Below the pieces are notes generated by a model. The model was given only the letters and a program-made list of their open reading frames with translations, was not told where the DNA came from and ran no database searches. Positions 5,358 to 15,285 of a DNA stretch of 64,000 nt are shown here, in pieces (position 1 is the stretch's first letter; each line of letters begins with the position of its first letter). Both the position numbers and the translations under genes were made by a program. The DNA is from Lagierella massiliensis (GTDB taxonomy: Bacteria; Bacillota; Clostridia; Tissierellales; Peptoniphilaceae), in contig NZ_CYUO01000005.1 in the NCBI RefSeq assembly GCF_001407835.1, forward strand, positions 496,001 through 560,000, written 5' to 3'.

Positions 5358-6374
5358 ATGAAATTATTTGAAGAATATACTGATGGCAAAATAAAATTAA
5401 AAAACCATTTGGTTATGCCACCAATGTGCATGTATCAATGTAAGAAAGAGGACGGAGTTCCAACTGACTTTCATGTTGCCCACTACGGAGCAAGGGCTAT
5501 AGGACAGGTGGGAATGATAATTGTTGAAGCAACTGGGGTTATGGAAAACGGACGAATCACCGATAATTGTCTTGGACTTTGGAATGACGAACAGCTTGAA
5601 GGGCATAAGAGAATAGTTTCATCCATAAAGAACAATGGAAGTTATGCTGCAATACAACTTAACCATGCTGGAAGAAAATCTGAAACCAGTGGACTAAGAC
5701 ATATTGGACCAAGTGAAATAGAATATAATGACAAAGAGATAGATTATGAAGAAATGACTTTAGAAGATATTAATGAAGTAGTTTTAGCTTTTAAAGACGG
5801 AGCGAAAAGAGCGGACCTTGCAGGCTATGATGGCATAGAAATTCACGCTGCCCATGGATACCTAATACACCAATTTATAAGTCCTCTTGCAAACAAGAGA
5901 AAAGATAAATATGGCGAAGATAGATTTTTATTACTAAAAGAAATTGTTTCTGCAATTAAAGAGGTATGGCCAAGGAAAAAGGCACTTTGGATGAGAATAT
6001 CAGCTACAGACTATCATGAAGATGGAATAAAGGTAGAAGACTGGATTGATTTTTTAAATGAAAATAAGGACATAGTTGACTTTGTACATGTGTCAGCAGG
6101 AGCAGTTGTAAATGTGCCAATAAAAGTTTATCCAGGATATATGCTCCAATTTGCAAAGAGGATAAAGGAAGAAACTGGTTATAAGACAATTGGCGTTGGA
6201 AAGATAAAGACATTGGAGTTTTCAAGTTACGCATTAGAAGAAGGAGCTTGCGATTTAGTCGCCATAGGTAGAGAGCTTCTTAAAAATCCAAACCTATATA
6301 TAGATTTTGTTGAAGAGATGGGAAAAGGCGAAATACCTTTCTACTACAAGAGAGCTTACAGACAGCTTGACTAG
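5358..6374 (+). CDS. namA: NADH:flavin oxidoreductase / NADPH dehydrogenase (NamA/YqjM-like)
   Basis: A 338-residue FMN-dependent TIM-barrel enzyme of the old yellow enzyme family, class YqjM/NamA. Members reduce activated C=C bonds and nitro compounds. The N-terminal MPPMCMY carries the cysteine that tunes the flavin in YqjM. QLNHAGRKSE and the HAAHGYLIHQFISPLANKR region (about residues 165-185) carry substrate- and flavin-binding residues. GVGKIKTLEFSSYALEEG and AIGRELLKNP form the phosphate-binding end. The length is as expected. Last gene of the three-gene operon; the physiological substrate is unknown. Confidence 0.88.
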   Translation: MKLFEEYTDGKIKLKNHLVMPPMCMYQCKKEDGVPTDFHVAHYGARAIGQVGMIIVEATGVMENGRITDNCLGLWNDEQLEGHKRIVSSIKNNGSYAAIQLNHAGRKSETSGLRHIGPSEIEYNDKEIDYEEMTLEDINEVVLAFKDGAKRADLAGYDGIEIHAAHGYLIHQFISPLANKRKDKYGEDRFLLLKEIVSAIKEVWPRKKALWMRISATDYHEDGIKVEDWIDFLNENKDIVDFVHVSAGAVVNVPIKVYPGYMLQFAKRIKEETGYKTIGVGKIKTLEFSSYALEEGACDLVAIGRELLKNPNLYIDFVEEMGKGEIPFYYKRAYRQLD

Positions 6375-6395
6375 TTAACACATTAGGAGATAGAT

Positions 6396-7163
6396 ATGAA
6401 AAAAATAACTTTAGTTTCAGAACTTGCAGATTTTAAACCAAGGATATGGAGAAGGTTTGAAATTTCTGACCAAAACACCATACAAGATTTTATTGACTTA
6501 ACAATGATTATGTATGCAATGACAAATTCACATCTTCATCATCTATCAATTCCTGTAAAGGTAAGTGACTTTGTGCAGGAAAACTTAGATGAGAATGGAA
6601 AACTAAAAAAACCAATTCCCAAAAAACTTTATGATTTTGAACAAAATTATAGACCAAATCCAAATGTGTCCAAGTTCAATATTTATGACGAAGAGTACGA
6701 TTTGGATGAGATATCGGAAATGTTTGATGATGACTTTGATGATGGATATTATATTAGAAATTTTGATTTAGATAAAGGTCCAGATCCCAACTTTTTAAAT
6801 TACATGAAAAAACAAGACGATAATATATTATATATGCATCCAAGAATTACAAGAAGAGCCAGAAAGAAAAATAATCCACTTAAAAAGTTAGAAGAGTTAA
6901 ATCTAAGGGTTAGAGATAGACTTGACTTCTATTACGACTATGGTGACGATTGGCATATTAGATTTGATGTGGAAAAAATTGAAGAAGTTGAGAAAGATTT
7001 TGGTCCAGTTCCAAAGATCCTTAGGGGCAAGGGCTTTGGAATAATTGAAGATATTGGAGGTACATGGGGCCTGGAAGAAGCTTTTGAAGAAGAGCCTATA
7101 TTAAAGATATTTGATAAAGAAGATCTTCAAGATGCACTGGACGATATTTTCAAGGATTATTAA
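6396..7163 (+). CDS. plasmid pRiA4b ORF-3 family protein
   Basis: A 255-residue acidic protein. The opening ADFKPRIWRRFEISDQNTIQDF and the later DRLDFYYDYGDDWHIRFDVEK are the two hallmark blocks of the PRiA4_ORF3 domain: a beta strand with PRIWRR, then YDYGDDW. GxGxxIIEDIGGTWGLEEA follows. The biochemical function of the family is not established; many members sit on plasmids or beside mobile genes. The middle (residues 85-130) is very rich in Asp and Glu. It has its own ribosome binding site (TAGGAGATAG) and a terminator after it. Confidence 0.8.
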   Translation: MKKITLVSELADFKPRIWRRFEISDQNTIQDFIDLTMIMYAMTNSHLHHLSIPVKVSDFVQENLDENGKLKKPIPKKLYDFEQNYRPNPNVSKFNIYDEEYDLDEISEMFDDDFDDGYYIRNFDLDKGPDPNFLNYMKKQDDNILYMHPRITRRARKKNNPLKKLEELNLRVRDRLDFYYDYGDDWHIRFDVEKIEEVEKDFGPVPKILRGKGFGIIEDIGGTWGLEEAFEEEPILKIFDKEDLQDALDDIFKDY

Positions 7164-7173
7164 AAAAATTATT

Positions 7174-7204
7174 AAAGGGAATTCGAAAGGATTCTCTTTT
7201 TTTA
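7174..7204 (+). terminator. Rho-independent terminator
   Basis: AAAGGGAAT pairs with ATTCTCTTT (one G-T) around an 8-base loop and is followed by a run of T. It follows the pRiA4b-like gene. Confidence 0.65.
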
Positions 7205-7333
7205 TACCACTAAAAGGATTCTTCATGATAAGATATAGAAAAGGAAAGAAAAGAGGGATCATGATGGCAGTAACTTTCTAACAAAAATAAAATGCAAAAT
7301 AAAAATTGAATAGCGAAATTGTTAGGAGGTTAT

Positions 7334-8971
7334 ATGAAACTTTTAGACATGAAAAACATCTCCATGGCATTTGGAGATAGGAAACTTTTTTCTTTTGACA
7401 GTTTGGAAATATGGTCAGGAGACAAAGTTGGACTAGTTGGTGTAAATGGATGTGGTAAGACAACTCTTTTTAAAATAATGCTTGGAGAGTTAAAGCCTCA
7501 AGATGGACTTGTCAAGCGAAACGGAAATTGGAAGGTGTTTAAGCAATTTGAATCCATTGAGAAGTTTAGTGAGATTGATGGAGAGCATAGCGGAAGATGG
7601 AATGTAAATGAGATTATAAAAAGAGACAGTAAAAAGTTTTCCGGTGGCGAAGAGACGAGAATAAGACTTGCAGACACCTTTAGTGAAAGGTCGGACTTAA
7701 TTTTGCTTGACGAACCAACTGCAAACCTCGATATTAAAGGCATTGAAAAACTAAAAAGTGCTTTAGAGAAAATAGACTCCTTTGTGCTAATTTCCCACGA
7801 CAGAAACCTATTAGACAAGTTGACCAATCGGACCATAGAGATTAGTTATGGGAAGATTTATGACTTTAATGGTAATTACTCACAATATATGCAGTGGAAA
7901 GAGGAAGATTTTTTAAGAAGACAGAGAGAATATGAAAACTATGTTGACGAGAAAAAAAGACTTCTACAAATTTCTGAAAATCAAAAGCAAAAGGCAACTA
8001 AAATGCGTGCAAAGCCAAAAAATCTTTCTAACAGTGAAATAAAACAGAGGGCATTTGGTGCTGTGGGCAAATCCTTTGGTGGAAAGGAAAAGAGTTTTCA
8101 AAGGGCTGCAAAGCATACTGAAAAGAGGATTGAACAGCTGGATAAAAAGGAGAAGCCTTTGAAGAATCCAGTTATTCGTCCAAACTTTAATCTAACAGAA
8201 CCTCCCAATAATAGATTTATTATTGAAGGAGAAAGTATAAATTTTTCCTATGGGAATAGAGTTATATTTAAAAATGCGAACTTTAAATTAAAGAGAAACA
8301 AGAGAACTGCACTGGTTGGAGAAAATGGATGCGGTAAGACAACACTCCTTAAACTTATTGAAGAAGGTTGCGAGAGCATAAGGATTGTTCCTAAAGCAAA
8401 GCTTGGAATCTATAGGCAGTCTTTGGATCAAATTGACGAAGGGAAAAATTTGCTGGAAAATATAAATTCAGTTTCCATTCAAGAAGAGGAAGTAAATAGA
8501 AATGTACTCATAAGAATGGGTTTTAGAAGACAAGACTTTCACAAGAGCGCTGCAGTTTTGTCCGGTGGAGAAAAAATAAAACTTACATTTGCAATGCTAT
8601 TTGTTTCTGATGTAAATGTACTATTACTTGACGAACCTACAAATTTTTTAGATATTGACTCCATAAAGGCCATAGAAAATCTATTCTTAGACTTTGAAGG
8701 CACAATGCTATTTGTGTCCCACGATAGGCATTTTATAGATTCCCTCAGTGATGAAATTTTTATTATTGAAGATAAAAAAATAAAATCTTTCCAAGGAAAT
8801 TTAACTGAGTATGAACAATCAAAAAAAGTTAAGTCAGGTGGCAACGAGGACAAGCTATTACTTGAAATGAAAAAAACTGCATTATTGAGTGAGCTTAGTC
8901 TTGGCATTAGAAATAAAGATGAGATTATCAAAGAGCTTGATGAAGTTGAGAAGAAACTAAAGGAGATTTAA
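7334..8971 (+). CDS. ABC-F family ATP-binding protein (ribosome-protection type)
   Basis: A 545-residue soluble protein with two ABC ATPase domains and no membrane segment. Domain 1 has Walker A GVNGCGKTT, signature FSGGEETR and Walker B LILLDEPTANLD. Domain 2 has GENGCGKTT, LSGGEKIK and VLLLDEPTNFLD. A long basic linker (about residues 195-285, rich in K, R and Q) lies between them, as in ABC-F proteins that enter the ribosomal E site. A linker of this type occurs in antibiotic-resistance ABC-F proteins (Lsa, Vga, Sal), but the drug, if any, cannot be read from sequence. ATG 7334 is preferred because AGGAGG lies 4 bases before it; an upstream TTG overlaps that site. Confidence 0.82.
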   Translation: MKLLDMKNISMAFGDRKLFSFDSLEIWSGDKVGLVGVNGCGKTTLFKIMLGELKPQDGLVKRNGNWKVFKQFESIEKFSEIDGEHSGRWNVNEIIKRDSKKFSGGEETRIRLADTFSERSDLILLDEPTANLDIKGIEKLKSALEKIDSFVLISHDRNLLDKLTNRTIEISYGKIYDFNGNYSQYMQWKEEDFLRRQREYENYVDEKKRLLQISENQKQKATKMRAKPKNLSNSEIKQRAFGAVGKSFGGKEKSFQRAAKHTEKRIEQLDKKEKPLKNPVIRPNFNLTEPPNNRFIIEGESINFSYGNRVIFKNANFKLKRNKRTALVGENGCGKTTLLKLIEEGCESIRIVPKAKLGIYRQSLDQIDEGKNLLENINSVSIQEEEVNRNVLIRMGFRRQDFHKSAAVLSGGEKIKLTFAMLFVSDVNVLLLDEPTNFLDIDSIKAIENLFLDFEGTMLFVSHDRHFIDSLSDEIFIIEDKKIKSFQGNLTEYEQSKKVKSGGNEDKLLLEMKKTALLSELSLGIRNKDEIIKELDEVEKKLKEI

Positions 8972-10523: not shown

Positions 10524-11012
10524 ATGGATAGAAATTTTTTAAGAGAATTTATAGGACGAACAGGAGTTGGGATTGTAAAGTACATTAAGGCAATAGTTAT
10601 AGCGTCATTAATAAACTTTATAGTTTTACTTTTCGGACTTAAATATGCAAATGTGTCCTACTATGGACTAATAGCATTTGCCATAGCTGTGGTAGATGTA
10701 CTTCCGGTACTTGGAGCAGGAATTGTTTTAATACCATGGGCTATAATAGTTTTAATACAGGGCAACACACATTTGGCAGTGACATTAATAGTGCTTTATC
10801 TAATAACATTTGTACTAACACAAATACTTCAACCACTAATACTTGGAAAGAGCATTGGACTTAAACCACTTTACACCTTGGGAATAACTTTAGTTTGTAT
10901 GTTTGTTTTAACACCAGGAGTTGGAGCTATTGTGGGAGCACTAATATCTATTATGGTTGCTGTATTTATCGATATGAAAAATGGAAATATTTTTGGTGAA
11001 GATAGGAAATAA
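10524..11012 (+). CDS. AI-2E family transporter, C-terminal half only
   Basis: A 162-residue membrane protein whose sequence matches the second half of AI-2E/YtvI-like permeases: YYGLIAFAIAVVDVLPVLGAG (with a gap-free helix), LTQILQPLILGKSIGLKPL, and TPGVGAIVGALISI. Family members are usually about 350 residues; the first four helices are missing. Even so, it has its own good ribosome binding site (AAGGAGAGTG) and lies between two terminators, so it may be expressed. It is either a truncated gene or a short form of the family. The substrate is unknown. Confidence 0.7.
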   Translation: MDRNFLREFIGRTGVGIVKYIKAIVIASLINFIVLLFGLKYANVSYYGLIAFAIAVVDVLPVLGAGIVLIPWAIIVLIQGNTHLAVTLIVLYLITFVLTQILQPLILGKSIGLKPLYTLGITLVCMFVLTPGVGAIVGALISIMVAVFIDMKNGNIFGEDRK

Positions 11013-11157: not shown

Positions 11158-13263
11158 ATGGGCAAATCTGAACAGATGATACAAAATGAAATATATAGCA
11201 ATAATACAACTATTTTAGATAAATATGAGTGTTTAAGCTTAGGCGCAACTACAATTAATAATTTAATGAAATCATCAATCATTAAAGAATATTCAGTAAA
11301 TAATAAAATTGGCTCAAAAAAACCTGATGTATTAATAATTGATAGTGAAAAAAATGTAATTATCTATGTCGAGCAAAAAAGACCGAGTAAGTTAAAGAGT
11401 GAAAAAGATATAAAGGAAGCTATAAATCAAGAACTTTATGTTGCAAAAGCAATAAATGCAAAAATATATGTAGTTAGTGATGGAAGTTCATATATTTGGA
11501 TTAATCCTAAAACTGGAAATCCAATTATTGATGAAAACAAGAATTTAATTAATTTAGAAATCAAACCAAAAGAAAATGGCAAAGAAGTTGCTAAGTTAAT
11601 AAATGATATATTGATATCAATAAATGATGAGTCTGATCAGATACTAAAAAAAGAATTTTTAGATCCAACAGATTTAGCGGTAAAAATAAATAGAAAATTA
11701 GTAAATTTGACTTTTGCTTCAGCCAAAATGTCTTTATATACTTTTGTTGAATTATTTTTATTCAAATATCTATCAGATATTGGGGTATTAAGTGGAGATA
11801 GTTCATTTTCTTATATTGCAAATATGTACAAAGAAGAATATAAAAAAATAGATCCAAGTATCAATGACGCAAAAGTATTAGGTAAATACTTAGATGGACC
11901 AAGAGAAACTATGAAAACCCTATTTCCAGAGGGAGAAGACGGTACAAGCATTATAAATGGTCAAGTTTTTCATGTTAAAAAAGATGAATATAATCAATAT
12001 GTAAGTCTTGATAATACAGATAAAATATTTAAAGAAGTTGTCTTAGAATTTGAAAACTATGAAAAAGAAAATGGAAAATTTATACATATAAGTACAGATT
12101 TCAAGTCGAAACTATTTGAAACATTTATGAAACATAGTGATGAAAAATCAAATATGGGACAGTTTTTCACACCATTAAAGATAGTAAATGAGATGATTGA
12201 AATGGTTGATATATATGAAGGGATGTCAATTTGTGATCCAGCATGTGGGGTTGGAAAATTTATCTTGGAATCAATAGAAGATAAAATTTCTGAATACTTT
12301 ACCTATAAAAAGAAAAAATTAGAAAAACGAATTGAAATAATTGGCTACGATAAGATGATGTCTGAAAGAGATGACTTAACAATAATACTTGCTAAGGCTA
12401 ATATGCTTATTTATTTTTCTGAACTTTTTAAGAAAAATAACTCTTTACAAGATGTTAAAACCATATCTCAAAGTCTACTGAATGATTCTTATTACCTTCA
12501 CCAAACAATGCTTGGAACCTTGGGAGAGTTAGAAGAAAATAAATATGATTTAATACTTGCGAACCCTCCGTATTATCAAAGCAAGGTAATGATGGAAGAA
12601 GCAAAAGCTACTGGATATTACGATTTAAATGGTGCTGGAGTCGAAAGCTTGTTTTTAGAATGGATATTAAAATCGCTTAAACCAGGGGGAACTGCAAATG
12701 TTGTATTGCCTGATGGTATATTCTCTAACTATGCTAACTCTAAGTTAAAAGAATATATGCTAAACAATTTCTTTATAGAAGCAATAATTTCCCTACCAGT
12801 AGGAGCGTTTTTTAACACACCTAAAAAGACTTATATATTGACAGTTAGAAAAGCAACAGAAGGAGAAAAAGAAGACAATAAAAAACAAGATTATCCTGTA
12901 TTTACTTATATTGCAACGAGTATAGGAGAAAGTCTTGATGTATATAGGTTTGACATAGAAGATAATGATTTAAAAGAAGCCGTTGCCAAATACAATTTCT
13001 ATAGAAAAGAAGATAAAAACAACCTAAGAGATTTAATAAAAAATCACATTGAATCAGATCCAAAGTTGAAATTAATAGATATAAAAGAATTTGATAAAGA
13101 TAAATCTTGGATAATAGAGAATTTTTGGTCAGAAGAAGAAAAAATAGAGATGGGACTTAAAAAGGCAAAAAAGGTTGTTACTGTTGATGAATTTCAAATG
13201 TTGCTGGATGATATGATTTCTCTAATGAATGAATTCAAGGAGGAATTAGAATGGCTGAAGTAA
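11158..13263 (+). CDS. fused restriction nuclease-N6-adenine methyltransferase (BcgI-like / type IIG-IIB)
   Basis: A 701-residue protein joining cleavage and modification. Residues about 1-120 form an HsdR_N-like PD-(D/E)xK nuclease domain with Pro56-Asp57, Glu72 and Lys74 (KKPDVL, then YVEQKRP). Residues about 300-600 form an N6-adenine methyltransferase of the HsdM type: KSNMGQFFTPLKIVNEM, AdoMet motif DPACGVGKF (about 360) and catalytic NPPY (Asn469). BcgI subunit A has the same order. The downstream gene overlaps by 13 bases and supplies the specificity subunit. A promoter and AAGGAGAATAAG ribosome binding site precede it. All key residues are present, so I infer an active system. Confidence 0.85.
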   Translation: MGKSEQMIQNEIYSNNTTILDKYECLSLGATTINNLMKSSIIKEYSVNNKIGSKKPDVLIIDSEKNVIIYVEQKRPSKLKSEKDIKEAINQELYVAKAINAKIYVVSDGSSYIWINPKTGNPIIDENKNLINLEIKPKENGKEVAKLINDILISINDESDQILKKEFLDPTDLAVKINRKLVNLTFASAKMSLYTFVELFLFKYLSDIGVLSGDSSFSYIANMYKEEYKKIDPSINDAKVLGKYLDGPRETMKTLFPEGEDGTSIINGQVFHVKKDEYNQYVSLDNTDKIFKEVVLEFENYEKENGKFIHISTDFKSKLFETFMKHSDEKSNMGQFFTPLKIVNEMIEMVDIYEGMSICDPACGVGKFILESIEDKISEYFTYKKKKLEKRIEIIGYDKMMSERDDLTIILAKANMLIYFSELFKKNNSLQDVKTISQSLLNDSYYLHQTMLGTLGELEENKYDLILANPPYYQSKVMMEEAKATGYYDLNGAGVESLFLEWILKSLKPGGTANVVLPDGIFSNYANSKLKEYMLNNFFIEAIISLPVGAFFNTPKKTYILTVRKATEGEKEDNKKQDYPVFTYIATSIGESLDVYRFDIEDNDLKEAVAKYNFYRKEDKNNLRDLIKNHIESDPKLKLIDIKEFDKDKSWIIENFWSEEEKIEMGLKKAKKVVTVDEFQMLLDDMISLMNEFKEELEWLK

Positions 13264-14969
13264 GGTATAAAGAAGTCAAATTAGATGACATTATGGATAA
13301 TCAGGGAGGAAGCTCAAAGTACTCACTTAAATATATCAATACTAATCCAGGAGAATATCCAGTTTATTCCGCAAAAACAACTGGTGACATGAATAAAGGT
13401 TATATAAATACCTATGATTATGATATAGAATGTTTGCAAATAACTACAAATGGTGCAAATGCAGGAACCATAATTTATAGGGAAAAGACAAAATTTTCCT
13501 TAGGATCGGATTCAAGAATATGGTATTGTAAAGAAGATATTGGCAACATATCGCTTAAATATATAGAAATAAAATTAAGGTCGGTATTTTCTTCTAAAGA
13601 TTTTTCTTGGACAAAGAAAGCATCATTATATAGGATAAAAAACATTAAATTTGAAATTCCAGTTGATGAGAATGGTAATTATGATATAGAAAAACAAAAA
13701 GAAATAGTAAAAAAATATGAAATTGTAGATGAAAAGAAAAAGGAACTTAAAGAGAAATTAGAATATTTTAAAGACGTTCAAGTTGATTTTATGGCTACTG
13801 AATTATCAAAAAGCAAATCTATGAAAATAAAAGATATATTCGATTTATCAATAGGTTCTAATGGATCAAATTTTACAAAAACTTTTATTAAAAATAATAG
13901 TGGAGATATTCCAGTTTATGGAGCAAGCAAAGATAATGAAATACCATCTTATGGGTACGTAGAAGATAATGCAGTAATAAAAGAAAAAAAGAATGGTAAA
14001 ATTCAAGAAACGAATGTCAAGTATTTTAATGACTGTTTGACTTACAATATTGATGGATTCGCTGGTTATGTTTTTTATAGAGAGGGGAAATTTAGTTTAA
14101 GTGAAAAAGTGAGTCCTTTAATAATAAAAGATGAATACAAAAATTATTTAATTCCTGAGTATTTGAAGTTTGCTATAGAGCCGATATTCAGAAATAATAG
14201 AAAAGGTCGTCTTGGAGAAAGCGAGATGAATGAATACACTAAGCTTTATAAAAATATGATTAAAGATATAGAAATTAACATTCCTATAAATGAAGATGGA
14301 ACATTCGATTTAGAAAAACAAAATCAGATTGTAAGAAAGTATAAAGCTATTGAAGAAATGAAAAAATCTATCTTAGATAAGGGTCTTCCTTTTACGCTAT
14401 CAAATGTTCAGTTCGATGGCGAAACTCCATATATATATATATATATAAGGGTTAGGGACTTATTTGATATACAAAGGGGTAAGTCAATTTATACAAAAAC
14501 TTATTGTAAAAATAATAAGGGAGAATATCCAGTATATTCAGCAGATAATAATAATCCTTTGGGGTACAGAAATGAATATGATCATGATGGTAAATATCTT
14601 AGCTCATCAATAAACGGTATTGCAGGAGTTTTAACGATTTTAGAGGGAAAATTTTCTACAAATGCAGATCGAGTTGTATTTATTCCAAAAGTAGAAAATA
14701 TTAATCTTGATTATGTAAAAAATATTATAGAGCCTATTCTTAGAAACAAAAACAAAGGAAGAAAGGGTCTAAAAGGGAAAAATGAATTTACAAAACTTAC
14801 ACCAAGTATGATAGAAGATGAGATGATACCAATTCCATATGATGTGTATGGAGAGGTATTTTCGGAAAAGCAAAGCATTATTGCAACTAAATATAAATCA
14901 ATAGATATGATAAAAAAAGAAATTGAAAATAGATTAAGTGAATTAATAAACATTGATTTATTTTTTTAG
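13251..14969 (+). CDS. HsdS-like specificity subunit with three target-recognition modules
   Basis: A 572-residue DNA-recognition subunit. Three homologous modules are visible at residues about 5-175, 190-378 and 400-570. Each starts with a strand block ending GEYPVYSA or GDIPVYGA, includes a REGKFSL/LEGKFST-type element, and closes with IPxDxxGxxDxEKQ plus a helical K-Y-x-x-I linker. Normal HsdS subunits carry two target-recognition domains and BcgI-type S subunits about 340 residues, so this one is one module longer. Residues 394-399 (YIYIYI) are encoded by an (AT)9 tract between modules 2 and 3. It overlaps the upstream gene by 13 bases, with AAGGAGGAATTA as ribosome binding site. Confidence 0.85.
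   Translation: MAEVRYKEVKLDDIMDNQGGSSKYSLKYINTNPGEYPVYSAKTTGDMNKGYINTYDYDIECLQITTNGANAGTIIYREKTKFSLGSDSRIWYCKEDIGNISLKYIEIKLRSVFSSKDFSWTKKASLYRIKNIKFEIPVDENGNYDIEKQKEIVKKYEIVDEKKKELKEKLEYFKDVQVDFMATELSKSKSMKIKDIFDLSIGSNGSNFTKTFIKNNSGDIPVYGASKDNEIPSYGYVEDNAVIKEKKNGKIQETNVKYFNDCLTYNIDGFAGYVFYREGKFSLSEKVSPLIIKDEYKNYLIPEYLKFAIEPIFRNNRKGRLGESEMNEYTKLYKNMIKDIEINIPINEDGTFDLEKQNQIVRKYKAIEEMKKSILDKGLPFTLSNVQFDGETPYIYIYIRVRDLFDIQRGKSIYTKTYCKNNKGEYPVYSADNNNPLGYRNEYDHDGKYLSSSINGIAGVLTILEGKFSTNADRVVFIPKVENINLDYVKNIIEPILRNKNKGRKGLKGKNEFTKLTPSMIEDEMIPIPYDVYGEVFSEKQSIIATKYKSIDMIKKEIENRLSELINIDLFF
14429..14447 (+). repeat. (AT)9 dinucleotide tract inside the specificity gene
   Basis: Nine AT units plus one A, read as TAT ATA codons (YIYIYI, residues 394-399). 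Adding one unit gives TAA at the end of the tract. Losing one gives AAG GGT TAG three codons later. Either change therefore ends the protein at about residue 396-400, right after the second recognition module. This is the structure of a slipped-strand contingency locus. Confidence 0.9.
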
Positions 14970-14973
14970 TAAC

Positions 14974-15013
14974 AAGGCGATTAGAAATTAAAAAATCTAA
15001 TCGTCTTTTTATA
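14974..15013 (+). terminator. Rho-independent terminator after the restriction-modification operon
   Basis: AAGGCGATTAGA pairs with TCTAATCGTCTT (one G-T) and is followed by TTTT. It starts 4 bases after the specificity gene stop. Confidence 0.8.
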
Positions 15014-15033
15014 TTACAAGAAAGGAGATTAGT

Positions 15034-15285
15034 ATGAAAAAAATAGAACAAATAAGACAAGAGTCAAAAGAAATAAAAGATAAAATTGACAATGAAGAAA
15101 GATTAAGGCAACTAAAAAATCAAGAGCAAAAGATATTAAAACAAAACATAGGAAAAAGAAGAAAAGAAAAAACTCATATGCTAATAACAAGAGGAGTAAT
15201 CTTAGAAAGTCTTATTGATAATGCAGAAGAACTAACAGATGAAGAAATAAAAAATATTAAAAAAGTAAAGCAAAAAAGAGAGTAA
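15034..15285 (+). CDS. DUF3847 family protein of mobilizable elements
   Basis: An 83-residue, highly charged helical protein. The C-terminal block RRKEKTHMLITRGVILESLI is the DUF3847 signature. These small proteins sit directly upstream of MobA/MobL relaxase genes in Firmicute integrative and mobilizable elements and may assist DNA processing; the role is not established. AGAAAGGAG precedes the start. No intact relaxase follows here, so the gene is an orphan of a lost element. Confidence 0.65.
   Translation: MKKIEQIRQESKEIKDKIDNEERLRQLKNQEQKILKQNIGKRRKEKTHMLITRGVILESLIDNAEELTDEEIKNIKKVKQKRE

Follow-up and report, generated by a model that had tools for sequence, protein, structure and literature searches.

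Does a short dinucleotide repeat decide whether a restriction-modification enzyme of Lagierella massiliensis carries two or three DNA-recognition modules? The question is raised by the specificity (S) gene that stands beside an RM gene in the stretch of 64,000 nucleotides analysed here (the window; coordinates in Table 1). Within this gene, an uninterrupted (AT)9A tract of 19 bases is read as the codons TAT ATA TAT ATA TAT ATA, giving the peptide YIYIYI at S residues 394-399. The first-pass annotation of this DNA had placed these nine units at the border between modules 2 and 3, and this observation is confirmed by the sequence and by the module profile, which agree on it; the tract overlaps the first strand of module 3, in a part where the structural model is weak. 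The only matches to an (AT)7 pattern in the window lie inside the tract, no such pattern arose in 100 dinucleotide-preserving shuffles of the window, and the second-longest dinucleotide run has 5 units. In the whole genome (1,832,315 bases) it is the sole run of at least 8 AT units. By itself an (AT)9 is nothing unusual for the family, being found at least once in 37 of 130 genomes.

The consequences of a change in tract length can be read directly from the reading frames. With 6, 9 or 12 units the computed frame stays open and S has 570, 572 or 574 aa; the loss of one unit brings a stop after 400 aa, and the gain of one a stop after 399 aa, each leaving a two-module S. The two stop contexts that had been named for the alternative frames are both correct, whereas the predicted truncation at about 397 residues was slightly off, the products having 399 and 400; that these would be proteins of two complete modules holds for both. 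The earliest in-frame start codon 3' of the tract is a TTG at 14559, and since it sits about 40 codons inside module 3, this module would not be made whole out of frame. One criterion of a contingency locus is a repeat within the reading frame, with a unit whose length is not a multiple of three and a frameshift that alters the product, and the tract fulfils it.

Table 1. Coordinates of the restriction-modification locus and its repeat, numbered from the first base of the window
Feature	Position	Strand	Basis
RM subunit, 701 aa, N-terminal nuclease-like stretch fused to N6-adenine methyltransferase	11158..13263	+	Pfam, motif
S (specificity) subunit, 572 aa, three recognition modules	13251..14969	+	Methylase_S, Foldseek
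Module 1 (recognition domain + helix)	13257..13772	+	own module HMM 3e-26
Module 2 (recognition domain + helix)	13806..14375	+	own module HMM 1e-23
(AT)9A repeat where modules 2 and 3 meet; candidate switch by slippage	14429..14447	+	sequence, shuffles, genome scan, frames
Module 3, putatively switchable	14436..14939	+	own module HMM 7e-23
Stop TAG used when the tract is one unit shorter	14453..14455	+	sequence; product lengths

The S gene follows the RM gene and overlaps its end. Its product is matched by Pfam Methylase_S in three stretches (8e-34) and by a module HMM that we built with modules of the window S and of its relatives as seeds, and by both it is a chain with three recognition domains, as in HsdS of the JHP1422 type. 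Pairwise, the three modules share 33-43% identity. That unrelated genes were fused here was considered and ruled out, all three modules matching one family and split relatives keeping open, conserved third modules. When S is aligned with the S proteins of 13 relatives, nearly all of them two-module, the pairing covers window residues 1 to about 380, and module 3 is extra. The structural model based on this alignment (mean pLDDT 67.8) has helices at 146-183, 354-377 and 538-571 that close modules 1, 2 and 3, and it places residues 392-400 in the first strand of module 3, a module with poor support, since almost none of the aligned sequences extends over it; a model from the single sequence (mean pLDDT 29) was not used. 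Foldseek matches 11 entries at E<=0.001, which comprise S subunits of type I systems or complexes that include one, a fused methyltransferase and BsaXI.

In the RM protein the methyltransferase domain is clear (Pfam N6_Mtase, 8e-32), and the evidence for a nuclease consists of a PD...VEQK motif starting at residue 56 and an HSDR_N_2 match that stays below the cut-off (5e-4, 20.5 bits against 25). Set against type I restriction-modification, the locus fails on the hsdR criterion: nothing in the genome rises above the NCBIfam cut-off for a separate HsdR (three sub-threshold matches lie elsewhere), and no hsdR with a translocase is seen, by inspection, among the ORFs of at least 80 aa at 9-20 kb of the window. 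A separate S beside RM without HsdR is the two-subunit layout of BcgI-like systems, and the first-pass annotation had called the locus BcgI-like. The term fits the two-gene design but not the sequence family of RM, which over 250 residues is only about 20% identical to the RM proteins of BcgI-type relatives. The PADLOC model REase_MTase_IIG, which the RM of one such relative matches at 2e-167, is absent among the best 25 of the 33 PADLOC matches of the window RM. By the tests made, then, the window RM does not belong to the BcgI sequence family, to which the BcgI-type relatives are close.

Repeats at this border recur in relatives, and they accompany the third module. The S-family search gave a match in 92 of 130 genomes of the family, and the layouts among the matches listed include long three-module frames as well as pairs in which a two-module frame precedes one with a single module. 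A repeat at border 2/3 with a unit that is not a multiple of three was observed in 24 of 25 complete three-module S loci (10 fused, 15 split), or 23 of 24 when the window is set aside, and in none of 24 two-module loci. The units measure 1, 2, 4, 5 or 7 bases (AT, AC, AG, G, AGAC, CGAA, GAACC, GCACGCC), and a change of one unit toggles between two- and three-module lengths in the window and likewise in its 24 relatives with a complete three-module locus. Twenty loci had been picked by reading-frame layout before their repeats were inspected, not every match of such a layout being included; further loci joined the set later, and repeated hits within one genome were merged. The repeat scan initially covered units of 1-6 bases, with which 22 of the 25 loci carry a repeat (Fisher 5e-11); units of 7 and 8 bases were added afterwards, and two loci with 7-base units (G134, G145) were counted only then. 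The sole three-module locus left uncounted, G075, carries (AG)5, which is below threshold. A second set, drawn from viral contigs and from plasmid and phage records with queries from the first, shows the repeat in 4/4 three-module and 0/14 two-module loci. The Fisher values (4e-13 for the first set, 3e-4 for the second) overstate independence, since the loci are related; near copies are L177 of G105, L180 of L170 and G106 of G105. The first-set counts do not include G074 (an S truncated where its contig stops, with the tract separating two modules), two two-module loci that are split and repeat-free, three single-module hits, L082 and L096 (both two-module, without repeats), or L150-L153 and L155 (split or partial modules, without repeats), and three loci of the second set fall in neither class: L173 with four modules, L174 with two modules split by (GA)10 and L184 with one module.

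The BcgI-type group has RM proteins that are 71-91% identical where complete, and eight of its S genes carry border AT tracts of 9 to 14 units, three in fused and five in split genes; the border peptide is of the YIYIY type in those relatives whose translation was inspected. Truncated products of this AT-tract group (356 to 373 aa) are like the two-module S of several RM relatives without a repeat: G163 has a frame of 358 aa and G207 one of 371 aa, and on three plasmids the S gene is 1,071 to 1,077 bases long; one plasmid relative has a one-module S. The closest relative of the window RM in the plasmid collection (31.6% identity) is accompanied by a two-module S gene, 1,149 bases long and lacking the repeat. 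Differences in tract length are observed directly between near-identical alleles. L170 and L180, both split, differ by 7 mismatches in 3.8 kb and, within the gene, by a single 8-base gap in the tract, (AT)16 versus (AT)12; G105 and G106, also both split, differ by 5 mismatches in 3,561 bp and one 1-base gap, with a poly-G of 9 and 10. The earlier suggestion that such a tract can toggle S between three and two modules is borne out by these alleles, by the fused and split homologues and by the association of the repeat with the third module, and the structural interpretation is thus supported by comparison.

In the split genes the third modules stay open. The out-of-frame module 3 has a dN/dS of 0.09-0.19 in the six pairs among G048, G096, G143 and G079, and of 0.23-0.43 when these are paired with G091, ratios that are rough because dS is near or above 1, with synonymous sites near saturation. 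Some split loci (e.g. G106, G091, G236, G146, G075) have a start codon before or just inside module 3, so that module 3 may be a separate chain there. Judged from sequence alone, the close link between third modules and border repeats suggests that split S genes of the three-module kind are switch states and not pseudogenes. We give hardly any credence to the possibility that the window gene is an assembly error or a decaying gene fusion: such tracts are error-prone in assembly and one of the relatives is a MAG, but a second assembly shows the same tract in the same frame, the third modules of split genes are open and conserved, and the repeats associate with three-module genes.

This second assembly (G074) is the genome of another genus of the same family, which also holds the window locus. 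Its S gene, cut by a contig end, is present from residue 134 onward with the same (AT)9 in the same frame. The locus region is 85% identical in DNA between the two genomes; module 3 is 91% identical and module 2 only 49%, the first 172 residues of RM are 98% identical, the DNA upstream differs and the similarity downstream stops near 15086. From this comparison the RM-S unit looks mobile. Searches with the window RM found it in 2 of 249 genomes of the order at E<=1e-30 and in 1 of 391 genomes of a class sample at E<=1e-40, namely its own, G074 not being among the matches listed there; in viral contigs neither the window RM nor its S was found. With so few copies, variation of the tract at this locus could be followed in two genomes only, and no length variant was seen between them, both having nine units. 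Counting units across related genomes, the check proposed in the first-pass annotation, thus gave a divided answer: the number is constant in 2/2 genomes at the window locus, and it differs among near-identical alleles of relatives. Slippage at the window locus is inferred, as none has been observed there, and switching remains unproven because both genomes have nine units despite 85% DNA identity.

Those same nine units are what could be expected if the tract were now fixed in the window and merely coded for the first strand of module 3, switching being confined to relatives, and the position of residues 392-400 in that strand of the model also agrees with it. We regard this as distinctly improbable. 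The run uses only TAT and ATA, though ATT is nearly as common as ATA in S (36 TAT, 6 TAC, 33 ATA, 28 ATT, 2 ATC), and among relatives split genes carry AT tracts of 9 units and near-identical alleles have AT tracts that differ. Codon conservation around the tract was dropped as evidence and adds little, because equally long runs of identical codons exist elsewhere in the S gene: the run that spans the tract has 17 codons, and one of 19 lies away from it.

We return to the reading of the window tract as a contingency (phase-variation) element that toggles S between two and three modules, which we hold to be quite likely, with slippage at this locus and its effect on recognition inferred. Slipped-strand mispairing at replication would make the tract gain or lose AT units; the RM enzyme would carry the three-module S at 9 units (likewise at 6 or 12), and in the other two frames a whole S of about 400 aa with the customary two modules. 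In two-domain type I S proteins, pairs of domains read bipartite sites. The likeliest effect of the longer form would be that module 3 pairs with module 1 or 2 and adds a second bipartite target, so that the switch would add or remove one specificity while the basic specificity, due to modules 1+2, may persist. In the absence of a methylome, this gain of a target is inferred because a three-domain HsdS of H. pylori, JHP1422, methylates two sites, and constructs show the pairs 1+3 and 2+3 of its domains each to work, according to the part of the study available (PMC3936762). The same case makes it very unlikely that a three-module S reads one tripartite site and not a second bipartite one, as JHP1422 works with pairs of its three domains; three domains are physically present, and there is nothing more direct in favor of a tripartite site.

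A more serious alternative, still unlikely in our opinion, is that module 3 is a phase-variable brake, the fused S assembling poorly or not at all, and that the tract turns RM off and on with its specificity unchanged. An enzyme that abruptly acquires a new target would attack the chromosome of its own cell, which is not methylated there, and we know of no protection from self-cutting for the window RM; a new specificity in an RM fusion enzyme carries this risk. Moreover, six BcgI-type relatives (two fused, four split; 15 pairs) keep module 3 at 69-88% identity but module 1 at only 40-48%, as for a fixed function. However, across 14 type I loci the sequence of module 3 varies as much as that of the other modules (median identity 36%, 91 pairs), and between G075 and G132 modules 1 and 2 are identical whereas module 3 differs (40%), which is what an exchangeable recognition domain would give. 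This exchange behind identical modules 1+2 fits a role of module 3 in recognition, as far as sequence can tell. The three-domain JHP1422, in addition, is active (PMC3936762, available in part).

How does the proposed switch compare with known systems? The BcgI-type relatives of this study (G142, G073, G083, G048, G096, G143, G079, G091, L169, L170, L180) have the same combination of an RM with a three-module S and an AT tract at border 2/3, and differ in that their RM is of another subfamily, at the low identity given above. The RM locus of Staphylococcus phage phi-42 (X94423), which we take to be Sau42I, has the same RM + S layout but a two-module S without repeat; its RM protein is 47% identical to that of a BcgI-type relative over 96%, and it did not come up in the search with the window RM as query. 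Sau42I is called BcgI-like in a reference title in the accessible part of PMC3077401, where the gain of a third domain by recombination is also reported. In NgoAV of Neisseria gonorrhoeae, poly-G slippage in hsdS gives a truncated S with altered specificity (PMC6789123, PMC7394358, PMC9577141, all partial texts), and here too slippage in an S gene yields a long or a truncated S that differ in specificity; unlike in the window, the NgoAV S goes from 410 to 208 aa and from two domains to one, the repeat is a homopolymer, and the system is of type I with a separate HsdR. JHP1422/JHP1423 of H. pylori J99 shares with the window an S with three recognition domains, there with two targets, but it is of type I and its alleles vary in domain number and connectors, with no mention of a repeat tract in the available part of PMC3936762. 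In the same text, H. pylori HP1471/HP1472 and JHP1364/JHP1365 combine a two-gene RM + S arrangement with a phase-variable repeat in S, but the poly-G frameshift blocks translation of the full S, and a third module is not mentioned in that part.

Repeats in S genes are otherwise well documented: they are reported in 7.9% of type I hsdS genes (PMC7394358, in part), and the poly-G of an N. lactamica hsdS changes during carriage (PMC6232127, in part). For three-domain HsdS, PMC12429846 cites, in the portion available, the Atack 2020 survey of type I gene repeats, so that the type I pattern may in part have been published before. We found no published repeat that toggles a third module, in a search that did not include the main survey of type I gene repeats. 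The methyltransferase repeat switches in the papers cited are on/off or lead to a shortened two-domain S, and here an extra recognition module would be controlled. The chances seem to us evenly balanced that this reflects a rule, in which a third S module is an optional add-on behind a slippage repeat, adopted repeatedly, with many units, in BcgI-like and type I systems; a slip would then bring in a further target without giving up the original one, which neither the known on/off switches nor the known swap switches do. The link between a third module and a border repeat makes such a rule testable in any genome or methylome collection. If the three-module form does gain a target, cells of one clone would differ in the phage DNA they cut and in the chromosomal sites they methylate, and the RM fusion enzyme would have to survive the new target on its own chromosome.

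Some further observations concern the loci collected here. Two type I S genes, L106 (G126) and L110 (G123), have nearly identical modules 1 and 3 and a different module 2, with different repeats, (AC)14 and (AG)10 respectively, hinting that repeats may move along with recombining modules. In the IMG/VR contig L174, a BcgI-type S near 6444 has its two modules in different frames with (GA)10 at border 1/2, and is perhaps a half-S switch of the NgoAV kind. Another IMG/VR contig, L173, has four S modules in a row at 5976-8127; two of them are fused, the other two lie in frames of their own, and the third contains (AG)8.

Dinucleotide runs were also noticed outside S genes. A (TA)10 at 1942-1961 of L164 (G074) comes directly ahead of a 679-aa frame, truncated where the locus ends, that starts MSCAACAGRIE, presumably resembling a copper-transporting ATPase, and could possibly be a promoter-type switch; in L165 (G073), an (AT)11 at 1790-1811 precedes a 550-aa frame, also truncated, with a signal-like N-terminus, the distance to its first start codon being about 75 bases. 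Around the window system itself, a 162-aa frame upstream of RM (10524-11012) matches only the C-terminal half of AI-2E transporters and is perhaps a gene remnant, and just after S (14966-15285), DNA with a DUF3847-like gene matches many genomes of the family at 84-92% and a plasmid of Anaerococcus prevotii at 90%, a mobile-element backbone adjoining the system.
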